DNA from: Phycisphaerae bacterium | GTDB lineage: Bacteria; Planctomycetota; Phycisphaerae; Phycisphaerales; Phycisphaeraceae | DNA length: 64,000 nucleotides | NCBI GenBank assembly: GCA_030425705.1 | Contig: JAUHZU010000002.1 | Span: forward strand, 124,001-188,000 | Direction: 5' to 3' | Shown: piece by piece, positions 1,996 through 16,018 of the stretch | Position numbering within the stretch: position 1 is the stretch's first letter | Layout of the letters: each line of letters starts with the position of its first letter | Translations under genes and position numbers: made by a program | Notes under the pieces: model-generated | Told to the model about the DNA's origin: nothing | The model's input: the letters and a program-made list of their open reading frames with translations, nothing else | Databases searched by the model: none

Positions 1996-3777
1996 ATGAT
2001 GAGATCGCTTGCATCAATGGGGTGGCTGTGCCTCTGCCTGTCCGCCGTGGCCTGTAACGCCACGCCGGCGGCGGCAGAGCCCGAGCCCGTGACGGACCAG
2101 GACGCACGCATGGCGTGGTTCCGCGAAGCGCGTTTCGGGATGTTCATCCACTTCGGGCTCTACTCGGTCGCGGCCGGCGAGTGGGACGGCCAGCCCGTGG
2201 GCTTCGTGGAGTACTTCGGTTTCCGCAACCCCGAGGACTGGCAGGCCCTGTTGGACGACTTCAACCCGGTCGATTTTGATGCCGACGAGATCGTCCTGGC
2301 CGCAAAAGACGCGGGCATGCGCTACCTGGTGGTGACGTCCAAGCACCACGACGGGTTCTGCCTGTTCGACTCGGCGTACACGGACTTCGATGTGATGTCG
2401 ACGCCTTTCCGCAGGGACATCGTCCGGGAGCTGTCCGAGGCGTGCCGCCGACACGGGCTGCGCTTCGGTCTGTATTACTCGATTATCGACCTGGACCACC
2501 CCGACTATCTGCCGCGCCACGACTTTGACCCCCGGCCCGAGGAGGACGCGGACTTCGAGCGGTACATCCAGTTCATGAAGGACCAGCTCCGCGAGCTGCT
2601 GACCGGCTACGGCCCGATCGATGTCGTCTGGTTCGATGGGGAGTGGTACGACACGTGGGACAGCGAGCGGGCACACGAGTTCTGGGACTTTGTGCGCGGG
2701 CTGCAGCCCGACGCGCTGATCAACAACCGGATCGACAAGGGCCGGGCCGGCATGCAGGGCATGAACACCGACGATCATTACCTTGGCGACTTCGGCACGC
2801 CCGAGCAGGAACTGCTCACACGCAACCCCGGCGCAGACTGGGAGACCTGCCAGACCATGAACCGGCACGGCAACTGGGGCTGGCGGCACGATGAAGGCAA
2901 CTACTACAGCCAGACCGAACTGGTCCACCAGGTGATCCGCTGTGCGAGCATGGGCGGGAACATGCTCCTGAACATCGGCCCGAAGGATGATGGATCGATC
3001 CCGCAAACCCACCGCGACCGGCTCGAGGCGATCGGGCGGTGGATGTCGATGCACGGCGACACGGTGTACGGATCGCAGGCATCGCCCTACTCCCAGCCGC
3101 CGGCATGGGGCTGCTGCACGCTGAACGGCAGCACGCTGTACTGCCACGTCTTCGCGTTCCCCCCGGACAGGAGACTGGTGCTGCCGGTGATCGAGGGTGA
3201 GATCGTCGAGGTGTGGGCCCACGCGGATGCCGGGCGCCCGGCGCTCGCGTTTGAACGGTTGGAGGATGGATCGGTCGCGGTGGATCTGTCCGGGGTAGAG
3301 CCCGACCCGCATGCGACGGTGGTTGCGATGCGCTTCGCGGCGCCGCCGACCGCCCCGCCGTTCTCCGTGCGGCCCGACCACAACGGCGTGCTGACGCTGC
3401 GGGCGGCCGATGCGGCGATCCACGGCTCAGCCCGTTACGACGCACAGCGCGGGAGCGTGGGCTACTGGGTCGACGCCTCCACCTCGGTTAGCTGGCCGGT
3501 CACGGTTACGGCACCCGGGCGGTACACGGTCGATGTGAGCTACGGCTGCGCGGGCGATGGCGGCGGCACCTACGCGGTGGAGCTCGCCGGCTCGCGCGTG
3601 ACCGCCGAGAGCCAGGACACCGGCGGCTGGTTCGAGCGGCAGACCGACACCGTCGGCGAGTTAGTCGTTGAGCGGGCCGGCACATACGACCTCACGGTGA
3701 GCATTGTTGACATGCCCGGCGTCGCGGTGTTTGACCTGCAACACCTGGTGCTCCGTCCGGTCACGGACGCGCCATGA
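1996..3777 (+). CDS. Alpha-L-fucosidase, GH29
   Basis: A 593-residue exported glycoside hydrolase. Family 29 hallmarks are RFGMFIHFGLYS near the N-terminus, SKHHDGFCLFDS, and VVWFDGEWYDTW, whose Asp after WF is the expected nucleophile. A C-terminal beta-sandwich (about residues 440-590) with a carbohydrate-binding look follows the catalytic barrel. The start is set at ATG 1996 after an ACCGGAGACC ribosome-binding region rather than at an upstream ATG. The N-terminus is a signal peptide ending near AVAC, which could be a weak lipobox. Together with the preceding SDR it suggests use of fucose-containing glycans. No clear terminator follows. Confidence 0.9.
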   Translation: MMRSLASMGWLCLCLSAVACNATPAAAEPEPVTDQDARMAWFREARFGMFIHFGLYSVAAGEWDGQPVGFVEYFGFRNPEDWQALLDDFNPVDFDADEIVLAAKDAGMRYLVVTSKHHDGFCLFDSAYTDFDVMSTPFRRDIVRELSEACRRHGLRFGLYYSIIDLDHPDYLPRHDFDPRPEEDADFERYIQFMKDQLRELLTGYGPIDVVWFDGEWYDTWDSERAHEFWDFVRGLQPDALINNRIDKGRAGMQGMNTDDHYLGDFGTPEQELLTRNPGADWETCQTMNRHGNWGWRHDEGNYYSQTELVHQVIRCASMGGNMLLNIGPKDDGSIPQTHRDRLEAIGRWMSMHGDTVYGSQASPYSQPPAWGCCTLNGSTLYCHVFAFPPDRRLVLPVIEGEIVEVWAHADAGRPALAFERLEDGSVAVDLSGVEPDPHATVVAMRFAAPPTAPPFSVRPDHNGVLTLRAADAAIHGSARYDAQRGSVGYWVDASTSVSWPVTVTAPGRYTVDVSYGCAGDGGGTYAVELAGSRVTAESQDTGGWFERQTDTVGELVVERAGTYDLTVSIVDMPGVAVFDLQHLVLRPVTDAP

Positions 3778-3861: not shown

Positions 3862-3889
3862 TTGACGCCCGGGTTTCGGCCGATATCTT
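3862..3889 (+). promoter_or_regulatory. Candidate sigma-70-type promoter of the lysine operon
   Basis: TTGACG at 3862-3867 and TATCTT at 3884-3889 are separated by 16 bases. They sit immediately before the leader ATG at 3898, so transcription would begin within a few bases of that ATG. The leader peptide would then be read from an almost leaderless transcript, which fits the absence of a ribosome-binding site before it. This is inferred from sequence resemblance only. Confidence 0.5.
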
Positions 3890-3897
3890 GTCCCGCC

Positions 3898-3987
3898 ATG
3901 ACCTTCCTGACCAAAAAATCCGTCAAAGCCAAAGACGCCTCCGGCGTCCGGGCTGTGGCGGTGGCTGAGGGTCGAGCGATTCACTAG
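3898..3987 (+). CDS. Lysine-rich attenuator leader peptide (29 aa)
   Basis: A 29-codon reading frame begins MTFLTKKSVKAKDASG and ends at a TAG at 3985. Four of residues 6-12 are lysine, all encoded AAA (3913-3918, 3925-3927, 3931-3933), whereas the four lysines of the downstream lysX are all AAG. The frame lies directly ahead of overlapping RNA hairpins and an intrinsic terminator, the classical layout of a ribosome-mediated attenuator in which stalling at lysine codons would report lysine shortage. There is no obvious Shine-Dalgarno sequence, and the promoter position implies a near-leaderless start. The peptide itself probably has no other function. Confidence 0.75.
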   Translation: MTFLTKKSVKAKDASGVRAVAVAEGRAIH

Positions 3988-4044
3988 AACGCTCCACACG
4001 ACAGACCAACCTTCCAGACCCCCGGACGCTGTTCGGGGGTTTTT
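3934..4044 (+). promoter_or_regulatory. Lysine-operon transcription attenuator (competing hairpins)
   Basis: Three mutually exclusive pairings can be read. Segment 1 (GACGCC, 3934-3939) pairs perfectly with GGCGTC at 3943-3948, directly behind the last lysine codon. Segment 2 (GCGTCCGGG, 3944-3952) is perfectly complementary to CCCGGACGC at 4021-4029, giving an antiterminator. Segment 3 (4019-4027) pairs with segment 4 (4031-4039) to form the terminator. A ribosome stalled on the lysine codons would cover segment 1 and free segment 2 to block the terminator. A ribosome that reaches the stop codon would let 1:2 and 3:4 form. The structures are seen; the regulation is inferred. Confidence 0.75.
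4019..4044 (+). terminator. Intrinsic terminator of the lysine attenuator
   Basis: A nine-pair stem (CCCCCGGAC at 4019-4027 with GTTCGGGGG at 4031-4039, including one G-U pair) has a three-base loop and is followed at once by TTTTT at 4040-4044. It lies between the leader peptide and lysW, where only a conditional terminator makes sense. Confidence 0.8.
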
Positions 4045-4071
4045 CTATCCACGACCCGAAAGGTACCCACC

Positions 4072-4257
4072 ATGCTCGAGACGACGACCCCCCCCGCCCT
4101 CTGCCCCGAATGTGACGCGGAGATCCGCTTTGCCCGCCCGCCTCTGAACGGTGAGATCGCGCACTGCTCGGCCTGCAGCGCCGAACTCGAGGTGACCTGC
4201 ACGCAGCCGATCCGGCTGGAGCTGGCGCCCGAGGTCGAGGAAGACTGGGGCGAGTAA
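4072..4257 (+). CDS. lysW: LysW-type amino-group carrier protein
   Basis: A 61-residue acidic carrier protein. It has two Cys pairs of a zinc-ribbon (CPEC at 11-14 and CSAC near 32-35) and ends in the diagnostic EDWGE tail, whose terminal glutamate gamma-carboxyl is the attachment point for the amino group of alpha-aminoadipate (or glutamate) in known LysW systems. It is the first structural gene after the attenuator and is followed by lysX, lysY, lysZ and lysK. LysW protects the amino group and carries the intermediate between the pathway enzymes in the cytoplasm. AAAGG upstream of the ATG is a reasonable ribosome-binding site. Confidence 0.95.
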   Translation: MLETTTPPALCPECDAEIRFARPPLNGEIAHCSACSAELEVTCTQPIRLELAPEVEEDWGE

Positions 4258-4303: not shown

Positions 4304-5179
4304 ATGCGACTCGCGATGACCTATACCCGCCTGCGGACCGAAGAACGCCTGCTGTTGGATGCGTTCGAGGGGCAGGGGATCGACGTAGACCCGATCGACC
4401 TGCGGTCGGCGGTGTTTGACCCGGCGGACGCCGGCGACTGGCGGCGCTACGACGCGGTGCTGGACCGGTCGGTGAGTCTGACCGCGACGCTCACGGCGGT
4501 GCGGGTCCTCGAAGGGCTCGGCGTGCGGTGCATCAACCCGCTGTCGGCGGTCGAGGCGTGCTCGGACAAGCTGGCGACGACGATCGCGCTGCTGCGGGCC
4601 GGTGTACCGACGCCCGCAGTCCGTGTCGCCACGGGGGTCGAGTCGGGACTGGTGGCGATCGAGGCGATCGGCTACCCCGCGGTGCTCAAGCCGACGGTCG
4701 GGAGCTGGGGCCGGCTGGTCGCGCGGGTCAACGACCGGGACGCGGCGGAGGCGCTGCTCGAACACCGAGCGACGCTCGGGTCCGCCCAGCAGGGCGTGTT
4801 CTACGTGCAGGAGCACATCGACAAGCCCGACCGCGATATCCGCGTGTTTGTGGTTGGCGGCGAGCCGGTCGCGGCGATTGTCCGGCACAGCGCGCACTGG
4901 GTCACGAACACCGCGCGCGGCGCGACGGCAGAGGGGCTGGAGCTGACCGACGCGTTGCGGTCGATCGCGCGGCGCTCGGCCAAGGCGGTCGGCGCGGACC
5001 TGGTCGCGGTGGACCTGCTGGAGTGCCCGCGGCGCGGGCTGCTGGTCAACGAGCTGAACCACTCGATGGAGTTCCGCAACAGCATCACGACGACGGGCGT
5101 GGATATCCCTGGCCTGATCGCCCGTTACGCCGCGTCGATCGCTGACACGCTCCGCGCGCGGGAGGCCGCGTCCGCATGA
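4304..5179 (+). CDS. lysX: LysW-aminoadipate ligase LysX (ATP-grasp)
   Basis: A 291-residue RimK-like ATP-grasp ligase that joins the amino group of alpha-aminoadipate to the C-terminal glutamate of LysW at the cost of ATP. Visible marks are SDKLATTIALLRAGVPTP near residue 87, VLKPTVGSWGR near 126, the hinge VQEHIDKPDRDIRVFVVG and the metal/substrate motif NELNHSMEFRNS near residue 252, which is characteristic of LysX/ArgX. I cannot decide from sequence alone whether it takes aminoadipate or glutamate, but the lysine-coded leader supports aminoadipate. The stop overlaps the start of the next gene by four bases (ATGA), indicating translational coupling. Confidence 0.93.
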   Translation: MRLAMTYTRLRTEERLLLDAFEGQGIDVDPIDLRSAVFDPADAGDWRRYDAVLDRSVSLTATLTAVRVLEGLGVRCINPLSAVEACSDKLATTIALLRAGVPTPAVRVATGVESGLVAIEAIGYPAVLKPTVGSWGRLVARVNDRDAAEALLEHRATLGSAQQGVFYVQEHIDKPDRDIRVFVVGGEPVAAIVRHSAHWVTNTARGATAEGLELTDALRSIARRSAKAVGADLVAVDLLECPRRGLLVNELNHSMEFRNSITTTGVDIPGLIARYAASIADTLRAREAASA

Positions 5180-6204
5180 GCTTGCGCGCTTCCATCATCG
5201 GCGGCAGCGGGTACACCGGCGGGGAACTGCTCCGGCTGCTGCACGGCCACCCCCGGGCCGAGGTCGGCCAGGTCTCCTCGCGGGCGCTGGCCGGCCAGCC
5301 CCTGCACCGCCGGCACCCGAACCTGCGCGGCGTGATCGACACGCCGTTCTGCACACCCGATGACGTCGGCCCGTGCGACGTGTTGTTCCTGTGCATGCCG
5401 CACGGCCGCGCGGCCGGCGAGATCGAACGCTGGCGGCAGCTCGCGCCGCTGGTCGTCGACCTGTCCGCCGACTTCCGCCTCAGCAACCCCGACGACTACC
5501 GGCGGTGGTACGGCGAAGACCACCCGTCCCCCACGCGGTTGGGCGAAGCGGTTTACGGTCTGCCCGAAGTCACGGGCGATCGGCTGAACGGTGCGCGGCT
5601 CGTATCCGGCGTCGGCTGCAACGCGACGGCGATGACCCTGGCGCTCCTGCCCCTGGCGCGGGCCGGGCTCATCCGCCGGGCGATCGCCGACGTCAAGGTC
5701 GGCTCGTCCGAAGCGGGGGCCGAGCCCTCGGCCGGCTCGCACCACCCGGTCCGCGCCCGTACCGTGCGGACCTACAGCCCGTCGGGGCACCGCCACCTGG
5801 CCGAGGTGTTCCAATCGCTGGGCGAGCTGGACCTGGACGCGACGGTCAGCGCGGTCGACATGGTCCGCGGCGTGCTGTGCACCGCGCACGTCGAGCCCAC
5901 CCGGCGGTTGGAGATGAAGGAACTCTGGCGTCTGTTCCGCGAGGCGTACCGGGACACGCCGTTCGTCCGGCTGGTCGCGGACCGCTCCGGTCCCAACCGC
6001 CTCCCCGACCCGCGCGTGCTGGTGGGCTCGAACTTCGCGGACGTGGGCTTCGCGGTCGATGAGCGCTCGGGCCGGGTCATCGCGGTCAGTGCGATCGACA
6101 ACCTGGTCAAGGGCGCGGCGGGGTCGGCCGTGCAATCGATGAACCTCGCCCTGGGCCTGGACCAGACCCTTGGGCTGACCTTCCCGGGGCTGCACCCGGC
6201 CTGA
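5176..6204 (+). CDS. lysY: LysW-aminoadipyl-phosphate reductase LysY (ArgC family)
   Basis: A 342-residue NADPH-dependent reductase of the ArgC/LysY family that converts LysW-bound aminoadipyl phosphate to the semialdehyde. The nucleotide-binding motif GGSGYTGGELLRLL is at residues 9-22, and the catalytic cysteine lies in VSGVGCNATAM near residue 150, the LysY-type variant of the ArgC active site. The expected GSSEAGAEPS and HLAEV segments follow. It starts inside the lysX stop codon and ends 16 bases before lysZ. It could in principle serve arginine synthesis if the pathway is bifunctional. Confidence 0.93.
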   Translation: MSLRASIIGGSGYTGGELLRLLHGHPRAEVGQVSSRALAGQPLHRRHPNLRGVIDTPFCTPDDVGPCDVLFLCMPHGRAAGEIERWRQLAPLVVDLSADFRLSNPDDYRRWYGEDHPSPTRLGEAVYGLPEVTGDRLNGARLVSGVGCNATAMTLALLPLARAGLIRRAIADVKVGSSEAGAEPSAGSHHPVRARTVRTYSPSGHRHLAEVFQSLGELDLDATVSAVDMVRGVLCTAHVEPTRRLEMKELWRLFREAYRDTPFVRLVADRSGPNRLPDPRVLVGSNFADVGFAVDERSGRVIAVSAIDNLVKGAAGSAVQSMNLALGLDQTLGLTFPGLHPA

Positions 6205-6220
6205 TTTTTTGGAGCGTTTC

Positions 6221-7048
6221 ATGAGCATGCTGGTGATCAAGATCGGCGGGGGCGAGGGCATTGACCCGAACGGGATGGCGGCGGAGATCGCCGGGCTGGT
6301 GCGCGCGGGCGAGCGGCTGGTCGTCGTGCACGGCGGCTCGCACGAGACCAACGTCGTGGCCGAGGCGCTCGGCCACCCGACGCGCACGATCACCAGCCCC
6401 GGCGGCCAGCAGTCGCGCCGCACCGACCGCCGGACCCTCGAGGTCTTCGAGATGGTCTACTGCGGCAAGGTGAACAAGGGGCTGGTCGAGGCGCTGCGGG
6501 CCGAGGGCGTAGACGCGGTCGGGCTCAGCGGGATCGACGCGGGGCTGTGGACCGGCGAACGCAAGACCGCGATCCGGTCGGTAGAGGACGGCCGAACGGT
6601 CATCGTGCGTGACGATTTGTCGGGGCGGGTGGTGTCGGTGGATGCGGCGTTCCTGAACCTGCTGCTGGACGCGGGCCGGGTACCGGTGCTCACCCCGCCG
6701 GCGGTCACCCCGGAGGGTGTGGCGATCAATGTGGATGCGGACCGCGCGGCGGCGGCGACGGCGGCGGCGCTCGGGGCCGACGAGCTGCTTCTGCTCTCCA
6801 ACGTGCCGGGCCTGCTCCGTGACCCGGCCGACCCGGCATCGCTGATCACGGCCTGTGGTGCCGACGAGATGGACACCGCGCACGCCGCCGCGATGGGGCG
6901 GATGAAGAACAAGGTGCTCGCCGCGGAGGAAGCGCTGTGCGGCGGGGTGGCAACAGCCATCATCGGCTCGGCTCAGGGCGACCACCCGATCGCCCGGGCC
7001 CGCAATGGCGCGGGTACACGGTTCATGCAGGGGGTGACCAGCGGATGA
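6221..7048 (+). CDS. lysZ: LysW-aminoadipate kinase LysZ (ArgB family)
   Basis: A 275-residue amino-acid kinase that phosphorylates the side-chain carboxyl of LysW-bound aminoadipate before reduction by LysY. Family motifs include LVIKIGGGEG at the N-terminus, VVVHGGSHETN near residue 44 and NVDADRAAAATAAALGADEL near 170. The ATG at 6221 is chosen because GGAG lies six bases ahead; an upstream TTG at 6209 would overlap that site. Its stop overlaps the lysK start by four bases (ATGA). Length is as expected for the family. Confidence 0.93.
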   Translation: MSMLVIKIGGGEGIDPNGMAAEIAGLVRAGERLVVVHGGSHETNVVAEALGHPTRTITSPGGQQSRRTDRRTLEVFEMVYCGKVNKGLVEALRAEGVDAVGLSGIDAGLWTGERKTAIRSVEDGRTVIVRDDLSGRVVSVDAAFLNLLLDAGRVPVLTPPAVTPEGVAINVDADRAAAATAAALGADELLLLSNVPGLLRDPADPASLITACGADEMDTAHAAAMGRMKNKVLAAEEALCGGVATAIIGSAQGDHPIARARNGAGTRFMQGVTSG

Positions 7049-8190
7049 CCACGACGCCGATCGAGATCAACGACGATGACGTGCGCGTGCTGTTCGACCT
7101 GGTGTCGACCCCCAGCGTATCGGGCGACGAGCGGCGCGCGGCCGAGGTATTTCAGGGCCACGCCGACCGCATGGGCATGGACACGGAGATCGACGCCGTC
7201 GGCAACGCGCTGGCGCACCGCGGTGCGTCTGAGCACGCCGCGGCCGTGCATCTGGTTTTGCTTGGGCACATCGACACGGTGCCCGGGGACATCCCGGTCC
7301 GCGTCGAGGACAACATCCTGCACGGCCGGGGCAGCGTCGACGCGAAGGGCCCGCTGTCGGCGATGCTGGTCGCGGCCGCGCGTGCCGAGCTGCCCGAGGG
7401 CGTCCGCGTCACGGTGGCCGGTGCGGTGGGCGAAGAGTCGCCGACCTCGCCCGGGGCGAGGCACCTGGTGCCGCGTTACCGCCCGGACGCGTGCATCATC
7501 GGCGAGCCCAGCGGGTGGGAGGGCGTGACGCTCGGCTACAAGGGCCGGCTGGTCGTGACCGCGACGGCGACCGGCCCAAACGCTCACAGCGCGGGTCAGC
7601 AGCCGTCGATGGGCGATGAGGTAGCCGCGTGGTGGTCGCGCGTGCTCGCGTACGTTGCCGAACTGAACGCGGGCCGGCACGGCATCTTCCACACGGTTCA
7701 GGCGACGATACAGCGGCTGGAGACGGCCTGCGACGGGCTGACGCAGCGGGCGTTGATTGAAGGCGGCTTCCGCCTGCCCCCGGGCGTCGATCCGGATGAA
7801 TTCGAGGCCGAGCTGCGCGGGCTAGCCGGGGAGCATGTGGAACTGAGCGCACACGGGGCCGAGGCCGCGCACGCGACCGACCGCAACAACCCGGTCGCAC
7901 GGGCGCTCTCGTCGGCGATCCGGGCCCAGGGCGCACGCCCGCACCCGAAGCTGAAGACCGGCACCGCCGACCTCAACGTCGTCGCGCCCGTCTGGCGGTG
8001 CCCGATCGCCGCCTACGGCCCGGGCGACAGCGCGCTCGACCACGCCCCGGACGAGCGGCTCGACCTGGAAGAGTACGCGCGATCGATCCGCGTGCTTACT
8101 ACAGCGATCGAGACCCTCGCGAACGAACTTTCAACACCTCGATCGGTCGACGCAGCGCGCCGCGACCTTGCCGGGAGCCCTACACGATGA
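7045..8190 (+). CDS. lysK: LysW-lysine hydrolase LysK (M20 family)
   Basis: A 381-residue zinc carboxypeptidase of the M20/ArgE-DapE fold that in known systems releases lysine from LysW. The metal-binding segments LLGHIDTVPGD near residue 76 and GRGSVDAKGPLSAM near 97 are intact, followed by GAVGEESPTSPGARHL with the general-base glutamates. The start is placed at ATG 7045, overlapping the lysZ stop, rather than at a distant in-frame upstream codon. No LysJ aminotransferase gene is found between lysZ and lysK or elsewhere in the operon, so the amination step before LysK must be done by an enzyme encoded elsewhere. The next start codon overlaps its stop (ATGA). Confidence 0.9.
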   Translation: MTTTPIEINDDDVRVLFDLVSTPSVSGDERRAAEVFQGHADRMGMDTEIDAVGNALAHRGASEHAAAVHLVLLGHIDTVPGDIPVRVEDNILHGRGSVDAKGPLSAMLVAAARAELPEGVRVTVAGAVGEESPTSPGARHLVPRYRPDACIIGEPSGWEGVTLGYKGRLVVTATATGPNAHSAGQQPSMGDEVAAWWSRVLAYVAELNAGRHGIFHTVQATIQRLETACDGLTQRALIEGGFRLPPGVDPDEFEAELRGLAGEHVELSAHGAEAAHATDRNNPVARALSSAIRAQGARPHPKLKTGTADLNVVAPVWRCPIAAYGPGDSALDHAPDERLDLEEYARSIRVLTTAIETLANELSTPRSVDAARRDLAGSPTR

Positions 8191-9035
8191 CGACCACCGC
8201 CTCTTCCACGACCGCCCCCCGGCCCCGGCGGTTCGCCGGCGAGAGCTGCGTCCGCGACGGCGAGATCATCGCACGCGGCGAGCCGATCGGGGCGCTGGTC
8301 GGCTCGACCAGCTACATCGAGATGGTGTTCTTCCAGCTGCTCGGCCGACTTCCCGCCCCGCGCGAGGCGGCGATGCTGGACGCGTACCTGGTGTCGCTCT
8401 GCGAGCACGGGGTGACTTCGCCCTCGACGCACAGCGCGCGGGTCGCCGCCAGCGTCCGCGCCCCGTTCGCCGCGAGCGCGATCGGGTTTATCTCGACCGC
8501 GATGGGCCCCTACCACTTCGGCGCGCTCGAACGCGCGATGGCCGAGCTGGTCGAGCTCGACCGCAGCGGCGCGTGCACGACCGGCTATGTCGAGGCGCGC
8601 ATCGACGCTGGCCAGCGTATCTGGGGCTACGGCCACCGCTTCCACACCAGCGCGGGTGACCCCGAGCCCCGCCGGCAGGTCCAGGAAGACGCCGACCCGC
8701 GCGTCCGCCGACTCATCCAGCTCGCCGACGAGCTTGGCTGGGACGGCCGACACCTCCGCCGGGTCCGCGAGATCGGCCGGCTGCTGCACGAACGCAAGCG
8801 CGTACCGATCAACATCGACGGCGTCGCGGCCGGGCTGCTGCTGGACATGGGCTTCGCCCCCGAGTCGGCATTGCTCTTTGTCATCATCGGCCGGCTGCCC
8901 AACATCGCCCGCCTCCACGCCGAGGAGCAACACGAACCGATCAACCGATTCGTGGCGCTCGCGACGCGCGATGACCCGGGCTTTGACCGCACCATCGACC
9001 GCGAACAGCACCCGCCTTCCGAGGACCCGCAGTGA
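8187..9035 (+). CDS. Citrate-synthase-fold enzyme, possible alternative homocitrate synthase
   Basis: A 282-residue protein, shorter than citrate synthase (about 370-430) and close in length to citryl-CoA-lyase-like domains. All three catalytic positions of citrate synthase can be matched: His in GPYHFGALE, His in GYGHRFH, and Asp in NIDGVAAGLLLDMG. RLPNIARLHAEEQ matches the C-terminal RxxGxxAHxxEQ region. The start at 8187 overlaps the lysK stop by four bases and the stop overlaps the next gene, so it is fully embedded in the lysine operon. Because no DRE-TIM-type homocitrate synthase is present, I infer that it may condense acetyl-CoA with 2-oxoglutarate. Citrate or methylcitrate synthesis, or lyase activity, remain alternatives. 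Confidence 0.75.
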   Translation: MTTTASSTTAPRPRRFAGESCVRDGEIIARGEPIGALVGSTSYIEMVFFQLLGRLPAPREAAMLDAYLVSLCEHGVTSPSTHSARVAASVRAPFAASAIGFISTAMGPYHFGALERAMAELVELDRSGACTTGYVEARIDAGQRIWGYGHRFHTSAGDPEPRRQVQEDADPRVRRLIQLADELGWDGRHLRRVREIGRLLHERKRVPINIDGVAAGLLLDMGFAPESALLFVIIGRLPNIARLHAEEQHEPINRFVALATRDDPGFDRTIDREQHPPSEDPQ

Positions 9036-9628
9036 CCGACCTGACGACCGAGGACTACGACCGCGTGCTCGGGCTTTTCCCCGTGCTCGCCGAGGTACGC
9101 GACGCGTCCTTGCGCATGCGCGTGGCATCGGCCTGGGACGACGCGATCCGCACGGGCAACGCCGGCCGGGGCTGGACCGTGCAGCAGCTCCGCGCGATCC
9201 CCTTCACGTTGCTGGCCGGCGAGACCCGCATGGGCTTTATCGAACACCTCAACAGCTGCGCCCTGCAGTGCCTCGCCATCGCGCGCGTGCTGGGCGAGAC
9301 GTTCGATGGCCGCGTCCCGATCGACCTCGATGTGCTGCTGGCCGGGGCGCTGCTCGCGGACGTGGGCAAGCTGGTTGAGTTCGAGTTGGACGCGGCGGGG
9401 AACCCGACGCAGGGCGAGACCGGCCGGCTCCTGCGGCACCCGTTCACCGGCGTGGCACTCGCGGACCGGCACGGCCTGCCGCCGGCGGTGATGCACCTCA
9501 TCGCCGCGCACAGCCACGAGGGCGACCGGATCGAGCGGTCCATCGAGTGCATCATCTTCCACCACGCCGACTTCGTGGACTTCGACATCGCGAAGTTCCT
9601 CGGCCGGCGTGCGGGACGGGGGGCGTGA
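9032..9628 (+). CDS. HD-domain-like protein with altered HD motif, in lysine operon
   Basis: A 198-residue all-alpha protein resembling HD-superfamily metal phosphohydrolases: EHLNSCALQC near residue 72, LLADVGKLVEF near 110 where HD enzymes usually read LLHDIGK, HPFTGVALADRHG near 140, AAHSHEGD near 160 and IIFHHADFVDFD near 175. The first residue of the HD dyad is thus Ala, although several other metal-ligand histidines and aspartates remain. Start and context (four-base overlap upstream, two-base gap downstream) tie it to the operon. Its job is unknown; it could be a hydrolase acting on a CoA or phosphorylated intermediate, or a non-catalytic partner. Confidence 0.6.
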   Translation: MTDLTTEDYDRVLGLFPVLAEVRDASLRMRVASAWDDAIRTGNAGRGWTVQQLRAIPFTLLAGETRMGFIEHLNSCALQCLAIARVLGETFDGRVPIDLDVLLAGALLADVGKLVEFELDAAGNPTQGETGRLLRHPFTGVALADRHGLPPAVMHLIAAHSHEGDRIERSIECIIFHHADFVDFDIAKFLGRRAGRGA

Positions 9629-9630
9629 GG

Positions 9631-11613
9631 ATGTCGGCCGAACCGAGGACCGCGATCGAGAAGATGGTCGCCCGCCACACCGTCGGGTGGGACGCCCCGC
9701 GCCCACCGCGCGCGGGCGACTTTGTCGTCATCCGCCCGCGGCACGTGATGACGCACGACAACACCAGCGCGGTGCTGCCGAAGTTCCGCGCGATCGCCGG
9801 GGCCGATGACCGGGTGTTGGACCCCGATCAGCCGGTGATCGCGATCGACCACGACATCCAGAACCACACGCCGGAGAACCTGGCCAAGTACGCGGCGATC
9901 CGCGCGTTCGCCGAGCGCCAGGGGGTCCGCTTCTACCCGCCGGGCCGCGGCATCGCGCACCAGGTCATGATCGAGGAGGGGCTGGTTACGCCCGGCTCGC
10001 TCGTAGTCGGTTCGGACTCGCACGCGAACATGTACGGCGCGCTGGGCGCGCTCGGCACGCCGGTCGTCCGCACCGATGCCGCGGCGATCTGGGCGACCGG
10101 GGAGACGTGGTGGCAGGTCCCGCCGCAGGTCCGCGTCGTGCTGCACAGCGAACTCCCCCCGGGCGTGACCGGCAAGGACGTGATCCTCACCCTGTGCGCA
10201 CTGTTCAACGCCGGCGAGGTGCTCAATACCGCCGTGGAATTCCACGGCGACGGGGTCCTGTCGCTGTCGATCGAAGACCGCCTGACCATCGCCAACATGA
10301 CCACCGAGTGGGGCGCGCTCGCCGGCTGGTTCCCGTTCGACGGCGTGGCCTACGCCTACCTGCGGGAACGCGTCAACGCGCTCGCCTCGGCGGGACGGCC
10401 CGCGCCCTGGGCGGACGGACTGGACCAGCAGTGGCACGACCGGTACCTTCTGACAGCCGACCCGGACGCGGTCTACGTTCGCGAGATCGAACTCGACCTC
10501 GCGACTCTCTCACCCCACGTCACCGGGCCGAACAACATCGGTAACGCCCGCCCCGCAAGCGAGCTCATGACGGAGCAGGTCCGCATCGACAAGGCCTACC
10601 TGATGGGCTGTGTCAACGGCCGGCTGAAGGACCTCGAGTCCGCCGCGCGTGTCTTCGAGGGCGGGCGTGCCGTCGCGCCGGGCGTCTCGTTCTACATCGC
10701 CGCGGCGTCCAGCGAAGTGGAAGACGCCGCCCGTGCGAGCGGTGCCTGGCAACGCCTGCTCTCGGCGGGTGCGGTCGCGCTCCCGCCGGGCTGCGGCGCG
10801 TGCATCGGGCTGGGCCGCGGCACCTTGGAGCCGGGCGAGGTCGGCATCAGCGCGACCAACCGGAACTTCGAGGGCCGCATGGGCTCGGCCGACGCCGAGT
10901 GCTACCTCGCCAACCCCGCGGTCGTGGCCGAGAGCGCCGCACGCGGGTACATCGCATCGCCCGACGATGTTTCACGGGAACCTTATGGCACCTGCCGGGC
11001 ATTCACTTCGCCGGGCGAGACGCAGACACCGCAGGCCATCGTCGACGGCTTCCCCAGTCGGTGCGTCGGCCGGGCGTTGTACCTGCCCCTGGACAACATC
11101 AACACCGACGGGATCTATGGCAAAGACGTCACCTACCGCGACGACATCACCCGCGAGCAGCAGCGCGGCCACGCGATGGTCAACTACGACCCGGCGTTCC
11201 GCGAGACCGTGAACGTAGGCGACATCCTCGTCACCGGGCGCAACTTCGGCACGGGTTCCAGCCGGGAACAGGCAGCGACAGCCCTGCTGTCGAGCGGCAT
11301 CCGCGTCGTGGTCGCGGCGAGCGCGAGCCAGACCTTCCAACGCAACGCCTTCAACAACGGGCTGGTCGTGATCGAGTGCCCGGCGCTGGCCGACCACCTG
11401 GCCGGCATGTTTGCGCAGCGGCTGGTATTGGGCGACCGCACGATCGTCGGCCCCGAGATCGCGGTCGACTTCGGTGCTTCCTCGGTGACCTGCGGCAGCG
11501 CGTCGTTTCGCTTTATGCCGGTGAGCGCTGTCGCGCAGCAGCTCGTTGTAGCCGGCGGCCTGGAGCCGTGGGTCGCCGGCCGGCTTAACCCGGCGGTCGG
11601 GGGGGCGCGATGA
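9631..11613 (+). CDS. Fused aconitase-family hydratase (LeuC-LeuD type; candidate homoaconitase)
   Basis: A 660-residue single-chain member of the aconitase superfamily in which the large catalytic (LeuC/HacA-like) and swivel (LeuD/HacB-like) parts are joined. The [4Fe-4S] ligands are visible as C327 in GCVNGRLKD and C388/C391 in CGACIGLGRG. The swivel begins near residue 480 with DNINTDGIYGKD and contains GTGSSREQAATALL. ATG 9631 is chosen because the upstream frame overlaps the HD gene. In this operon it most plausibly hydrates cis-homoaconitate to homoisocitrate, feeding the next gene's dehydrogenase. Isopropylmalate, citrate or methylcitrate chemistry cannot be excluded from sequence. Confidence 0.85.
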   Translation: MSAEPRTAIEKMVARHTVGWDAPRPPRAGDFVVIRPRHVMTHDNTSAVLPKFRAIAGADDRVLDPDQPVIAIDHDIQNHTPENLAKYAAIRAFAERQGVRFYPPGRGIAHQVMIEEGLVTPGSLVVGSDSHANMYGALGALGTPVVRTDAAAIWATGETWWQVPPQVRVVLHSELPPGVTGKDVILTLCALFNAGEVLNTAVEFHGDGVLSLSIEDRLTIANMTTEWGALAGWFPFDGVAYAYLRERVNALASAGRPAPWADGLDQQWHDRYLLTADPDAVYVREIELDLATLSPHVTGPNNIGNARPASELMTEQVRIDKAYLMGCVNGRLKDLESAARVFEGGRAVAPGVSFYIAAASSEVEDAARASGAWQRLLSAGAVALPPGCGACIGLGRGTLEPGEVGISATNRNFEGRMGSADAECYLANPAVVAESAARGYIASPDDVSREPYGTCRAFTSPGETQTPQAIVDGFPSRCVGRALYLPLDNINTDGIYGKDVTYRDDITREQQRGHAMVNYDPAFRETVNVGDILVTGRNFGTGSSREQAATALLSSGIRVVVAASASQTFQRNAFNNGLVVIECPALADHLAGMFAQRLVLGDRTIVGPEIAVDFGASSVTCGSASFRFMPVSAVAQQLVVAGGLEPWVAGRLNPAVGGAR

Positions 11614-12749
11614 AACGCTGCCGTATCGCGCTGTTGCCCGGCGACGGGATCGGGCCCGAGGTCGTCGCCGCCGCGCGCACCGTGCTGAACGCGGCCGGCT
11701 TCGAGGCCGACTACCCGGCCGGCCGGGTCGGCTGGGCGTGCTGGTGTGAGTCTGGCGACGCCCTGCCGCCAGAGACAATCGAGACCCTGCGCGGCTGCGA
11801 CGCGGCGCTGTTCGGCGCGATCACCAGTAAGCCCGCCGACGAGGCCGAAGCCGAGCTCGCCCCAACGCTGCGCGGCACGGGGCGGCGCTACACCAGCCCG
11901 ATCGTCCGTCTCCGGCAGCTGTTCGAGCTGCACACCGCGCTGCGTCCATGCCGGGCCATCCCCGGCAACCCGCTGAACCTCCGCGACGACATCGACCTGG
12001 TCGTCTTCCGCGAGAACACCGAGGGGTTGTACGGCGGGATCGAGTGGCACCCGCTGCCTGAGCCGCTCGCGCGCCAGATGGCCGACCCCGATACAGGCCA
12101 CCCCGCGAAGATGCGGCGCTGGTTCGATGCCGGGCTCGAGAGCGTTGCGGTCTCGACGCGCATCATGAGCCGGGCCGGCTGCGAACGCATCTGCCGCGCC
12201 GCCTTTGGCTACGCGCGGGACCACCACCGCCGGCGGGTCACGCTGCTGGAGAAGCCCAACGTCCTGCGCGAGACCGGCGGGCTGATGACCCGGGCCTTCC
12301 GCGATGTGGCGCGGCAGTACCCCGGTATCGAGGCGGCGGAGGCCAACATGGACGTCGCGTGTATGCACTTGGTCACCGACCCGACGCGCTTCGATGTGAT
12401 CGTCGCGGAGAACATGTTCGGTGACATCGCCAGCGACCTCGCGGCGGGGCTTGTCGGCGGGCTGGGCTTTGCGCCTTCATCGAATATTGGCGACGACTTT
12501 GCCGTCTTCGAGCCCACGCACGGCTCGGCCCCCGACCTCGCGGGGCAGGACCGAGCGAACCCCGTCGCCATGATCCTCAGCGCCGCGATGATGCTCCGCT
12601 GGCTCGGGGAGACGCCCAAGGCCGACGCCATCGAATCCGCTGTCGCCGACGCCGTGGCGGCCGGCGAGATCCAGACCCGCGACGTCGCCGGCCCCGCTGG
12701 CCGCGGAACCACCACCGGGACCGCGGCGCTCATCGCACAACGACTCTAG
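11610..12749 (+). CDS. Isocitrate/homoisocitrate/isopropylmalate dehydrogenase family enzyme
   Basis: A 379-residue beta-decarboxylating dehydrogenase. Family hallmarks are LLPGDGIGPEVVAAART at the N-terminus, the substrate loop FRENTEGLYGGIEWHP near residue 132, EKPNVLRETGG with the catalytic-type Lys near 212, the metal-binding DVIVAENMFGDIASDLAAGL near 260 and FEPTHGSAPDLAG near 297. The ENTEGLYGG substrate loop looks more like isocitrate or homoisocitrate dehydrogenase than isopropylmalate dehydrogenase. It overlaps the hydratase gene by four bases, so it is likely to make 2-oxoadipate from homoisocitrate for lysine. The exact substrate is inferred from the operon. Confidence 0.85.
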   Translation: MKRCRIALLPGDGIGPEVVAAARTVLNAAGFEADYPAGRVGWACWCESGDALPPETIETLRGCDAALFGAITSKPADEAEAELAPTLRGTGRRYTSPIVRLRQLFELHTALRPCRAIPGNPLNLRDDIDLVVFRENTEGLYGGIEWHPLPEPLARQMADPDTGHPAKMRRWFDAGLESVAVSTRIMSRAGCERICRAAFGYARDHHRRRVTLLEKPNVLRETGGLMTRAFRDVARQYPGIEAAEANMDVACMHLVTDPTRFDVIVAENMFGDIASDLAAGLVGGLGFAPSSNIGDDFAVFEPTHGSAPDLAGQDRANPVAMILSAAMMLRWLGETPKADAIESAVADAVAAGEIQTRDVAGPAGRGTTTGTAALIAQRL

Positions 12750-12773
12750 CGACCACCTCCGAGATACCCCCGC

Positions 12774-14228
12774 ATGCCGACCGCAACCATCGCCCCGCCG
12801 CCTTACCGCGCCGACCGCTTCATTGCGCGCGACCTCGCCGAGTGGGTCTCGGCTCTGCGCTACGAGGACCTGAGCCCCGAGTCGGTCGCGCTGGCCAAGC
12901 GTTTCTGGTTCGACTCGTTGGGCTGCGCGGCGGCGGGCAGCGCGACCCACGACGCGCGGATCCTGCTCGACCACACGCGCGCGATGGCCGGTGGCGCGCA
13001 CGGCCCGTGCGGCGTTTTCTGCAGTGAATTCAGCACGAACCCGGTCGACGCGGCGTTCCTCAACAGCCACCGGGTGCGCGCACTGGACTTCAACGATGTC
13101 TACTGGAAGGCCGACCCCGCGCACCCGTCGGACCTGATCTGCGGGCCCCTGGCGCTCTGCGAAGCGCTCGGGCGATCGGGCCGTGACATGATCCTCGCGA
13201 CCGTAGTCGTTTACGAACTGCAGTGCCGGTTCGCGGAGATCGGTCGGCCGGGCATCCGCGAGTACGGCTGGCACCACGCGACGCTGTCGGGCTTCGCCGC
13301 CGGGCTCGCCGCGGGCAAGGTCCTCGGGCTGTCGGTGGATGAGCTGGTCAATGCGACGGGTATCGCCGCGTCGCGCACCGGCTCGCTGGGCGCGGTGACG
13401 GCCGGCGACCTGACCATGATGAAGAACACGGTCGACCCGTGGGCCGCACGCATGGGGGTCGAGTCGGCGCTGCTCGCGCAGCGCGGCTATACCGGCCCGG
13501 CCCACATCATCGACGGCAAGGAAGGGCTCTTCCACGTCATGGGCCACAGCCGTGTCGCCGGCGAAGCGTGCTCCTTCGATGCCGAGGGCCTGACGCGTGG
13601 CCTGCCGACCTCGGCGGAGGCGCACTACCGCATCGCGGACTGCTCATTCAAGTCGTTCCCGGTCGAAGCGCTGATGCACGCGCCGCTGTCGGCTCTGATG
13701 TCGCTCAAGGCCGAGCACGCCTTTGCGAACGACGAGATCGACGAGGTGCGGGTCGAGGTGATCGCCCGCGCGGCGGACATCCTCGGCGACCCGAAGAAGT
13801 ACCGGCCCAAGACCCGCGAGTCCGCGGACCACTCGCTGCCCTACTGCTTCGCGGTCGGTCTGGCCGACGGCGCGATCGGGCCGGCGCAGTTCGACGCTGC
13901 GCGTGTGCGTGACGCGTCGCTGATCCCGCTCATGGACAAGGTCCGCGTGCTGCCGAACGAGGCTTTCGAGGCGCGTTTCCCCGCGGCGCAGCCCAGCCGT
14001 GTGACCGTGGTCCTGCATAACGGCATCGAACACACGGCGGTGGTCGAGTACCCGACCGGCGATCCCCGGAACCCGATGTCGGACGCCGCGCTCTCGGCGA
14101 AGTTCCGCGCCCTGGCCGAGCCGGTGCTGGGGGCCGAGCGTTGCGACCGGGTCTCTTCACTCGTGGCGGGCCTGGACGGCTTGGCTCATGTGCGCGAGCT
14201 TGTGGGCGCGATGGCGCTGCCGGCCTGA
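12774..14228 (+). CDS. MmgE/PrpD-family dehydratase, possible homocitrate dehydratase
   Basis: A 484-residue member of the MmgE/PrpD family, which includes 2-methylcitrate dehydratase and cis-aconitate decarboxylase. Visible family segments are FDSLGCAAAGSATHDAR near residue 46, HRVRALDFNDVY near 99, HPSDLICGPLALCEALG near 116 and GDLTMMKNTVDPWAARMG near 207. It is the last gene of the operon, 24 bases after the dehydrogenase. In the 2-methylcitrate cycle PrpD dehydrates and an aconitase rehydrates. By analogy I infer that this enzyme may dehydrate homocitrate to cis-homoaconitate, a step that some bacterial homoaconitases perform poorly or not at all. A separate role, such as propionate metabolism, is possible. 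Confidence 0.8.
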   Translation: MPTATIAPPPYRADRFIARDLAEWVSALRYEDLSPESVALAKRFWFDSLGCAAAGSATHDARILLDHTRAMAGGAHGPCGVFCSEFSTNPVDAAFLNSHRVRALDFNDVYWKADPAHPSDLICGPLALCEALGRSGRDMILATVVVYELQCRFAEIGRPGIREYGWHHATLSGFAAGLAAGKVLGLSVDELVNATGIAASRTGSLGAVTAGDLTMMKNTVDPWAARMGVESALLAQRGYTGPAHIIDGKEGLFHVMGHSRVAGEACSFDAEGLTRGLPTSAEAHYRIADCSFKSFPVEALMHAPLSALMSLKAEHAFANDEIDEVRVEVIARAADILGDPKKYRPKTRESADHSLPYCFAVGLADGAIGPAQFDAARVRDASLIPLMDKVRVLPNEAFEARFPAAQPSRVTVVLHNGIEHTAVVEYPTGDPRNPMSDAALSAKFRALAEPVLGAERCDRVSSLVAGLDGLAHVRELVGAMALPA

Positions 14229-14256: not shown

Positions 14257-15852
14257 TCAGGGCATCGGGACGGCGAGGTCCTTGACCTTCTTGTTGAGCG
14301 TGTTGCGGTTGATGCCCAGGAACTCGGCTGCGCGCAGCTTGACGCCGTTGCAGTGCACCAGCGCCTCGTGGATGAGCTGCCGCTCGACCTCGCCGACAAC
14401 CAGGTCGTAGACCTGCCCGTCATAGACCTGCAGCTGGCGGATCGCGTGGCCCGCCAGCTTGGCGCACAGCGCCTCGACGGTCTCGTCGGCCGCGTCGCTG
14501 CGCGTCTGCTCGGAAAACAACCGGACCTGAAGCGGCAGCAGGTCCATGCCCAACTCGTCGCCGGTCGACATCACCACCGCCCGCTCGATCGCGTTCTCCA
14601 GCTCCCGCACGTTGCCCGGCCAGGGGTAGCGCAGCAGCACGTTCAACACGTCCCGGCTGATCCGCGTGATCGATCGCTCGTTCTCTGCGTTGAATCGCTT
14701 GAGGAAGTGGTCGATCAGCATCGGGATGTCCTCGCGGCGCGAGCGCAGCGGGGGCAGGTTGATCGACACCACGCTCAGGCGGTAGTACAGGTCGTCGCGG
14801 AACGTGCCGGTGCGCGATTCTTCTTCAAGGTCGAGGTTGGTCGCCGCGATGATGCGGACGTCTGTCTTGATCGTCTTGTGGTCGCCGACGCGCTCAAACT
14901 CGCGCTCCTGCAGGACGCGCAGCAGCTTGACCTGCAGCGTCGGGTCCAGCGTGCCGACCTCGTCGAGGAACAGCGTCCCGCCGTCGGCCGCCTCGAACCG
15001 GCCGATCTTGTCGCGGACTGCGCCGGTGAATGCGCCCTGGATGTGCCCGAACAGCTCCGACTCGAGCAGCTGCGGCGACAGCGCGCCGCAGTTGACCTTA
15101 ATGAGCGGCTTGTCGCGGCGTGGCGAGTTGTAGTGGATCGCCTTCGCAACGAGTTCCTTCCCACAGCCGGTCTCACCCAGCAGCAGGCACGTCGCACGCG
15201 AGGAGGCGACCTGTGCGATCGTGCCGAGCACGTCCTCCATCGCCGGGCTGCTGCCGATGATGCTGTCGAAGCGGTACCGGCCGCGCAGGTCGTCGGTGAG
15301 CTGCTGCTTCTCCTCCAGCCACTGGTCCCGCTCCATGCGCACCTGGTGGTGGATGCGGATCGTCTGCGCGATCATCCCCGCGAAGATCGTGACCAGCCGC
15401 TGGTCCGACAGCAGCGTCGGCTCGTCGGTGAACGGCTTGAGCACGCCGATCGTGCCGACCGTCTGCTGGCCATTGAACACCGGCACGCAGAGGTAGCTCT
15501 GCCGCTTGCCCGCCGGGTCGGTGTCGGCCGAGCCCGTGCGGTTCAGGAAGTCCGGCTGCTTGGAGATATCCGGCACCACCGCCGGCTGACCGGTCTGGTA
15601 CACCCGCCCGGAGACCCCCTCCCCCGCCGCATACCGCCCCTTCCGCTGCTCCTGCGGGGACATCCCCACCGACGCCACGATGCGAAGCTGCTGCGTCGCC
15701 GGGTCTTCCAGCGTCAGTGCCGCCCGATCCAATCCCAGCGAGTGCCCAAGCACGGCCGTAGCTCGCTGAAAGACTTCTCCCAGCTCCATGCCGCCGCTTA
15801 GAATCTGACTGATCTCGACAAGCGTGTCTAATTCTTGAACATGTCGCTCCAT
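14257..15852 (-). CDS. Sigma-54-dependent transcriptional activator with GAF domain
   Basis: A 531-residue regulator of the NtrC class. An N-terminal GAF-type sensor (about residues 20-165) precedes an AAA+ domain with Walker A GETGCGKELVAKAIHYNS, the sigma-54 contact loop GAFTGA and the Walker B region GGTLFLDEVGTLDP. A Fis-type helix-turn-helix closes the protein (RAAEFLGINRNTLNKKVKD). There is no receiver domain, so a small ligand rather than a kinase probably controls it. The start at ATG 15852 is preferred to a frame extending 30 codons further. It is convergent with the lysine operon and its target genes are not evident in this window. Confidence 0.92.
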   Translation of the reverse strand: MERHVQELDTLVEISQILSGGMELGEVFQRATAVLGHSLGLDRAALTLEDPATQQLRIVASVGMSPQEQRKGRYAAGEGVSGRVYQTGQPAVVPDISKQPDFLNRTGSADTDPAGKRQSYLCVPVFNGQQTVGTIGVLKPFTDEPTLLSDQRLVTIFAGMIAQTIRIHHQVRMERDQWLEEKQQLTDDLRGRYRFDSIIGSSPAMEDVLGTIAQVASSRATCLLLGETGCGKELVAKAIHYNSPRRDKPLIKVNCGALSPQLLESELFGHIQGAFTGAVRDKIGRFEAADGGTLFLDEVGTLDPTLQVKLLRVLQEREFERVGDHKTIKTDVRIIAATNLDLEEESRTGTFRDDLYYRLSVVSINLPPLRSRREDIPMLIDHFLKRFNAENERSITRISRDVLNVLLRYPWPGNVRELENAIERAVVMSTGDELGMDLLPLQVRLFSEQTRSDAADETVEALCAKLAGHAIRQLQVYDGQVYDLVVGEVERQLIHEALVHCNGVKLRAAEFLGINRNTLNKKVKDLAVPMP

Positions 15853-16018
15853 TGTCTGCCTATTATCGCGCCGTGCGACGGGGTTGGCAAGTCGAATAGG
15901 CCCCCGTGCGCACAATAAACACGCTTGATGCAATTCTCGCACCCGGCGGGTTCAATTTTTATTGAATGTTGATTGGCAAGGGCTTAGCGGCCGGGCGGAT
16001 CCCGCCCGCGGCGGTCGC

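Follow-up and report, generated by a model that had tools for sequence, protein, structure and literature searches.

Our analysis indicates that the sequence ahead of lysW in the window (the whole 64,000-nt stretch of Phycisphaerae bacterium DNA that was analysed) very probably controls a LysW (alpha-aminoadipate) lysine operon as a ribosome-mediated transcription attenuator, with lysyl-tRNA as the sensed signal. Attenuation in response to lysine had been proposed in an earlier note on this DNA, and the leader reading frame, its codons, the competing helices, their conservation and their matched variation all support that reading.

Transcription would begin at or next to the leader ATG, and a ribosome would bind the 5' end of the near-leaderless RNA. 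When charged tRNA-Lys is scarce (chiefly the UUU isoacceptor, the reader of AAA), the ribosome would wait at codons 10-12 and cover segment 1, leaving segment 2 free to pair with the terminator 5' arm; with this antiterminator formed, RNA polymerase would continue into lysW. When lysine is plentiful, the ribosome would pass, segment 2 would be covered and then presumably captured by segment 1 behind it, and the terminator would form, ending transcription near 4044. The conserved control codons are 10 and 12; with the ribosome held at codon 6 or 7, segment 1 would stay exposed. We infer the start site, translation, stalling, termination and the lysine response from sequence.

The leader in the window

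Features of the leader and of the operon behind it are collected in Table 1. The leader ATG lies at 3898-3900 and the TAG stop at 3985-3987, and the predicted peptide is MTFLTKKSVKAKDASGVRAVAVAEGRAIH. Read from the bases, the frame has the 29 codons claimed for it, with lysine at 6, 7, 10 and 12, all AAA; 4 of 29 leader codons are therefore lysine, versus 1.5% in eleven window genes. The claimed pairings are likewise exact: GACGCC (3934-3939) with GGCGTC (3943-3948) in 6 of 6 pairs; 3944-3952, GCGTCCGGG, with 4021-4029 as a perfect complement (9 of 9, and an extra G-U possible between 3943 and 4030); and 4019-4027 with 4031-4039 in 9 of 9 pairs, one of them G-U, followed by TTTTT at 4040-4044. 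An intrinsic terminator thus sits between the leader ORF and lysW, the first gene; it is absent from the terminator-scan list and was seen by folding and by the hairpin search. The fold of the 151-nt leader (-66.4 kcal/mol, z -4.41) was equalled by 0 of 200 shuffles, and the match between segment 2 and the terminator arm by 0 of 200 leader shuffles.

We rejected the hairpin as a terminator of the upstream gene, because a promoter-like site and the leader ORF stand between them; the upstream ORF, with an alpha-L-fucosidase domain (PF01120), ends at 3777, 241 nt earlier.

Table 1. Predicted leader elements and operon genes in the window
Feature	Position	Strand	Evidence
Promoter-like element: TTGACG 3862-3867, 16 nt, TATCTT 3884-3889	3862-3889	+	Motif scan
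Leader peptide ORF, 29 codons and TAG	3898-3987	+	Conserved in relatives
K-A-K core, codons 10-12, putative control codons (conserved)	3925-3933	+	K10/K12 conservation; switch point of folding scan
Segment 1, partner of 3943-3948 (protector hairpin 1:2)	3934-3939	+	88% of cells paired in 21 leaders
Segment 2, common to hairpin 1:2 and antiterminator 2:3	3943-3952	+	Fit and covariation tests
Segment 3, 5' arm and loop of terminator; 4021-4029 is antiterminator partner of 3944-3952	4019-4030	+	
Segment 4 with T-run TTTTT, completing terminator 3:4	4031-4044	+	Sequence, fold, hairpin search
lysW, amino-group carrier protein	4072-4257	+	TIGR01206, 59.7 bits (cut-off 53.2)
lysX, LysW-alpha-aminoadipate ligase	4304-5179	+	TIGR02144, 316.5 bits (cut-off 275.6)
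Putative lysY, argC-like reductase	5176-6204	+	TIGR01850, 353 bits (cut-off 233.6); LysY from gene context
lysZ, [LysW]-aminoadipate kinase	6221-7048	+	NF010659, 341.2 bits (cut-off 223)
lysK, [LysW]-lysine hydrolase	7045-8190	+	NF003367, 412.5 bits (cut-off 363)
Protein with a citrate-synthase domain; overlaps lysK in this reading, its start being uncertain	8031-9035	+	PF00285, 90.2 bits
HD-domain gene, beside the citrate-synthase-like gene	9032-9628	+	PF01966
Homoaconitase	9625-11613	+	TIGR00139, 668.2 bits (cut-off 529.9)
Homoisocitrate dehydrogenase-like	11610-12749	+	Under cut-offs of all 16 families listed

Conservation and matched variation among relatives

Genomes of family f2 were taken as LysX-positive at E up to 1e-50 (91 of 163). 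Set A comprises 22 close leaders including the window, and set B 16 distant leaders whose ORFs were picked by eye. The duplicate rows L049, L051, L052, L057 and L059 were dropped. L038 was left out of the alignment, and the covariance model R1 was built from the 21 aligned set A leaders. R1 gave 48 full-length sites (E up to 3e-8) among the 163 f2 genomes, one per genome. Of these, 43 lie 239-539 nt upstream of lysX on the same strand, two near contig ends (G518, G529) stand before lysW in genomes where no LysX was found, and two (G476, G477) precede a citrate-synthase-like gene. The window's own genome has this site only (next match E 0.69), and a class-wide scan of 397 genomes with an E limit of 1e-4 yielded, besides the window, 13 f2 genomes and a single false match. 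The last, in G060 (f14, E 1.2e-5), was rejected as the Ala/Lys-rich end of a reading frame entering from upstream, plus a terminator; weak matches in G471, G487, G499, G475 and G435, which had no leader of this type, were rejected too. A match in G543 (E 0.0048) was retained for its context alone; the second rows of G380, G259, G549 and G298, and the rows of G421, G509, G510 and G523, were weak and lay outside the assessment. The 48-leader set used below is the window plus 47 of the 48 f2 sites; G229, which is L045 of set A, is not in it.

The leader was also sought by a rule, namely an ATG-initiated ORF of 15-60 residues with three lysines in nine, fixed after sets A and B had been seen and before the further loci were read. 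By this rule, 79 of the 91 LysX-positive f2 genomes have a leader before lysW, nine do not and three were unjudged; two of the nine (G485, G514) carry a GTG-start leader. A chance ORF was rejected as an explanation, such frames occurring in only 21 of 764 control windows. They occur in the window, at every R1 site with lysW save G485 and G514 (43 of 45), in 20 of 21 set A loci, which overlap the R1 sites, in 14 of 16 set B loci and in 24 of 28 further assessed loci, and in none of four LysX loci outside f2 (G375, of f22, is not among the four). These further loci derive from 31 listed, of which 29 were read (G436, which begins at a contig end, and G478 were excluded) and one, G457, had no lysW in reach; two loci with just 85 and 238 nt of upstream sequence were scored as misses. 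Strict terminators occur in just 7 of the 24 further loci with the ORF. Among the exceptions, G295 (L038) has two lysines and no R1 match, and G485 (L133) had no clear terminator in the scan. The remaining one of the 48 R1 sites, a leader with a terminator (L120 in G521, E 2.5e-8), precedes a long ORF that no search identified and that does not resemble a lysine gene, in a genome that is 61% complete and in which no LysX was found.

In the comparison with relatives that the earlier note had proposed, the lysine codons proved to be among the best-conserved residues, the opposite of what would speak against lysine sensing. Among the 21 aligned peptides K10 never varies and A11, K12 and A14 hardly do; the columns average 41% identity, and the conservation lies mostly in the lysine core. 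Moreover, lysine-dense leaders persist at distant loci whose other sequence has changed. This low mean identity, with conservation centred on the core, and the pairing of segment 2 with the terminator arm argue against a lysine-rich small protein that has a role of its own, with 4019-4044 as a plain small-RNA terminator without a link to lysW. We regard this as extremely improbable, even though a terminated leader RNA would be a short mRNA and the trpL leader peptide of Sinorhizobium meliloti acts in trans, according to the available passages of PMC7298713. Several distant leaders (L070-L074, L205, L206, L209, L214 and L222) have arginine-rich ends such as SGDGRVRVR and GPDRVRVSP, which may be imposed by the RNA helices or may add arginine sensing.

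The promoter-like element scores 9 of 12 (shuffles mean 0.1) and would place the transcription start at or just before the leader ATG. The almost-leaderless start predicted from it gains weight from the relatives, where the same spacing recurs: 26 of 48 leaders have TTGAC 35-41 nt upstream of an ATG, against a shuffle mean of 0.75 (maximum 3), and the other 22 do not. All 26 promoter-spaced ATGs are in frame with the lysine codons over 9-13 codons, a count that is not wholly independent, such starts having been preferred when the ORFs were chosen. A Shine-Dalgarno-like motif is present upstream of 7 of 48 leaders versus 37 of 39 lysW genes, the latter count allowing free choice among Met codons. 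The recurrent TTGAC-to-ATG spacing suggests that the leader RNA is probably leaderless.

Lysine codon choice in the leaders departs sharply from that of the genes behind them. Set A leaders have 86 AAA and 8 AAG versus 10 and 69 in lysX of the same 22 loci, and set B leaders 56 and 6 versus 5 and 78 (lysX of L058 is shortened by a stop in this count); the 48 R1 leaders total 192 AAA and 13 AAG. Eleven window genes use 5 AAA and 56 AAG in 4079 codons. The contrast drawn in the earlier note between an AAA leader and an AAG lysX is therefore found in the window, where lysX has four AAG and no AAA, and it recurs in relatives. At the DNA level, codon 10 is AAA in 21 of 21 set A rows, and codon 12 is AAG, a synonymous change, in L044 and L047. 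The window's genome encodes one tRNA-Lys(UUU) and one tRNA-Lys(CUU), from 50/51 tRNA-like places, so that one tRNA would decode AAA and probably both would decode AAG. In theory, with some experimental support from E. coli, the synonymous codon that responds most strongly to starvation is preferred in attenuators (PMC1183508, available passages), and the choice of AAA may represent tuning. AAG-using genomes with AAA control codons would offer a natural test of why attenuators pick particular synonymous codons.

These codon data also bear on whether the competing helices form some other RNA switch, a ligand riboswitch or protein-bound leader, with an incidental reading frame. The leaders do have hairpins and a terminator, like riboswitches, and the nucleotide conservation of AAAGCCAAAGACGC in set A, like the AAA at codon 10 in every row, is what an RNA motif would give. 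However, the lysine codons survive in set B and the further loci despite differing surroundings, codon 12 varies synonymously, and the promoter-spaced ATGs share the lysine frame, with the partial independence noted above. Rfam, in addition, has no family at the window leader at the gathering threshold (one chance match at E up to 5) and finds tRNAs only at 16 loci. There is therefore no L-box (RF00168) or T-box match, and a riboswitch or T-box reading was rejected; we consider an RNA switch of any such kind very unlikely.

Segment 2 fits its own terminator arm better than those of other genomes. Across the 48 leaders the own-arm total is -953.0, against a permuted mean of -820.0 and best of -880.9 (0 of 10000), and across 22 leaders -428.8 against -376.1 (0 of 10000), although in L035, L036, L050 and L053 over half of 21 foreign arms fit as well. 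The own fit was reached by at most 10 of 200 shuffles in 18 of 22 set A and 6 of 16 set B leaders. The covarying stems sought since the earlier note were borne out for helix 2:3, where two of five measures beat all shuffles, and stayed weak for helix 1:2. In the 21 aligned leaders helix 2:3 is 86.6% paired, with both sides changed in 6 of 10 pairs (0 of 500 shuffles; slid alignments reach three at most) and further pair types also reached by 0 of 500, the other three measures being reached by 19, 68 and 23 of 500. In L040 both 1:2 and 2:3 have changed with pairing kept, as has 2:3 in L055. For helix 1:2, double-changed pairs were reached by 83 of 500 shuffles and the score by 27. Helix 3:4 is 72.3% paired on the same alignment, where misalignment of the inner part lets a one-column slide score equally well; in a search of each leader separately, 47 of 48 R1 leaders show a clear terminator hairpin. 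In the close leaders, to which this result applies, the predicted antiterminator 2:3 and the terminator are mutually exclusive.

The effect of ribosome position was modelled in 47 leaders (L133 dropped) by masking the RNA to 12 nt past the first base of the A-site codon and folding the rest before the terminator 3' arm exists, the RNA upstream of the ribosome being left out. Sequestration of the terminator 5' arm was 0.71-0.77 with the ribosome at the last lysine of the KxK core or up to three codons before, 0.53 one codon past it, 0.40 two past and 0.25-0.36 later; in the window it was 0.70 at the last lysine, then 0.47 and 0.28, and later 0.22-0.56. Without a ribosome the value was 0.56 (window 0.45). 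The sharp drop past the last lysine places the switch at the conserved control codons, where a stall is predicted to free segment 2. Window energies are -66.4 for 1:2 with 3:4 and -59.0 for 2:3; hairpin 1:2 alone has -8.3 versus -20.9 for 2:3, so that 1:2 does not win by itself at equilibrium and would have to act by forming first. A stall at any earlier codon also sequesters the terminator arm (0.66-0.75), as expected if the leader responded to the general rate of its translation, or to rho, and not to lysine, coupling lysW transcription to translational capacity. This is a poor candidate with little probability, as it gives no reason for the lysine density or the choice of AAA, and the device is linked to lysine-pathway genes, among them, in two genomes, those of the second half.

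The lysine operon and its history

LysW, LysX, LysZ and LysK all score above curated NCBIfam cut-offs within one gene cluster, and AAGG stands shortly upstream of the lysW ATG. An MmgE/PrpD gene follows the homoisocitrate dehydrogenase-like gene, and the plus-strand run continues to 14228; the longest ORF after the cluster is on the opposite strand (14257-15942). At L058 (G504:C1, CP053450.1; PNC22) an intact leader precedes an interrupted lysX, of which only a 113-residue piece was matched, with an in-frame stop, reflecting either a broken gene or a sequencing error.

The window's LysX is alone in its family, f1, where the next match among 51 genomes has E 4e-26. Class-wide, LysX at E up to 1e-35 occurs in 36 of 397 genomes: the window, 30 of f2, one of f4, three of f18 and one of f22. 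Of thirteen records found by name, eleven are from Phycisphaerales, Phycisphaerae or Planctomycetota, one comes from an uncultured bacterium and one matches weakly and is unrelated. The LysX tree nests the window in an eight-row set (support 95/86); the other seven rows are f2 genomes or named records that match f2 genomes. This nesting, with no close match in f1, suggests that the LysW cluster (4304-14228) was probably transferred horizontally, together with its leader, into the window's lineage.

The window's genome keeps lysA (433.5 bits, cut-off 297.9), and lysine would therefore have two routes there. In f2, lysA of the DAP route is above cut-off in 42 of 163 genomes, 10 of 91 with LysX and 32 of 72 without. 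Its rarity in LysX-positive genomes makes lysine the likely LysW-pathway product in f2, where this route seems to replace the final step by which lysine is usually made.

A classical homocitrate synthase may be missing from the pathway: 14 of 15 f2 genomes tested gave no TIGR02146 match (E up to 1e-20), and the window's genome has three sub-cut-off matches elsewhere. The exception, G301, has the TIGR02146 enzyme at the cluster (G301:C1:2948373, 444 bits; ORF 8835-10070 of L224) and neither a citrate-synthase-like nor an HD gene within the 15 kb read. The citrate-synthase-like gene was found in the clusters of G298 and G383, and also in L058, G476, G477 and G543; it was not found within 12 kb in G380, G226 and G429. 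In G476 and G477 the device precedes a gene for a protein that shares 71-73% identity with the citrate-synthase-like protein of the window, and a second lysine-rich leader precedes lysW, both parts of the split pathway having lysine-codon leaders. Since the attenuator marks lysine-synthesis genes, it helped to flag the citrate-synthase-family protein (8031-9035) as a candidate replacement homocitrate synthase.

Lysine-codon leaders with terminators stand directly before the citrate-synthase-like gene at L123 (G476), L124 (G477) and, weakly, L125 (G543), and lysW of these genomes has its own, different lysine-rich leader (L216, L215 and L211). The HD-domain gene (PF01966) adjoins the citrate-synthase-like gene in the window, G298 (L227), G476 (L123) and G477 (L124).

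A wider proposal, for and against which we see equal chances, is that Phycisphaerales have a lysine regulon whose leaderless attenuators monitor tRNA-Lys(UUU) alone through near-exclusive AAA. In some genomes it would precede each half of the LysW pathway; in its home family it would go along with replacement of the DAP decarboxylase route; and it would have been carried horizontally with the operon into the window's lineage.

Comparison with known regulatory systems

Bacterial lysine control is usually told in terms of a riboswitch (the L-box) or a repressor, and ribosome-mediated attenuators of amino acid synthesis are familiar from the his, thr, leu, ilv and phe operons. The lysine cluster of Thermus thermophilus, of the alpha-aminoadipate route, reportedly has a lysine-responsive leader peptide attenuator; this leader, of another phylum than Planctomycetota, was not found in the literature searched. 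Nor did that literature, in the passages available and with few subscription papers covered, yield a lysine-codon attenuator before a LysW operon. The L-box (RF00168) is described as a widespread lysine-specific control of lysine genes (PMC3766115, in part); it binds lysine directly, and the present leader has no match to it. A survey of Actinobacteria reports no conserved RNA structure before the lysine operons there, in the portion available (PMC1262725).

Two Sinorhizobium leaders are closer in form. In S. meliloti trpL, a leaderless attenuator, the RNA begins with the leader ATG (PMC7298713 and PMC10117765, available passages). The ATG-initial RNA is shared with the present leader, where it is predicted; trpL concerns tryptophan, has 14 codons and belongs to Alphaproteobacteria. 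The sORF SEP5 has been suggested to encode a leader peptide with six threonine and three lysine codons (PMC10117765, in part). It resembles our leader in having lysine codons near an aspartate family pathway, and differs in standing before an aspartate dehydrogenase gene, with no LysW operon and no attenuator in the passage of PMC10117765 concerned.

The trp operon is likewise governed by a ribosome-mediated attenuator (PMC7298713, available text), and the present device would be a lysine-specific case of this known type, without an Rfam match. Like trp- and his-type attenuators, it combines a leader ORF rich in codons for the product, a terminator before the first gene and a competing antiterminator, with a candidate protector hairpin adjoining the control codons. 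Unlike them, it would sense lysine in Planctomycetota from a near-leaderless start, and its control codons are mostly AAA in AAG-using genomes. Its stop codon, moreover, lies about 32 nt past segment 2, so that shut-off after full translation would have to depend on 1:2 forming again. If this reading is correct, regulation by ribosome sensing would extend to Planctomycetota, a lineage with little known gene regulation.
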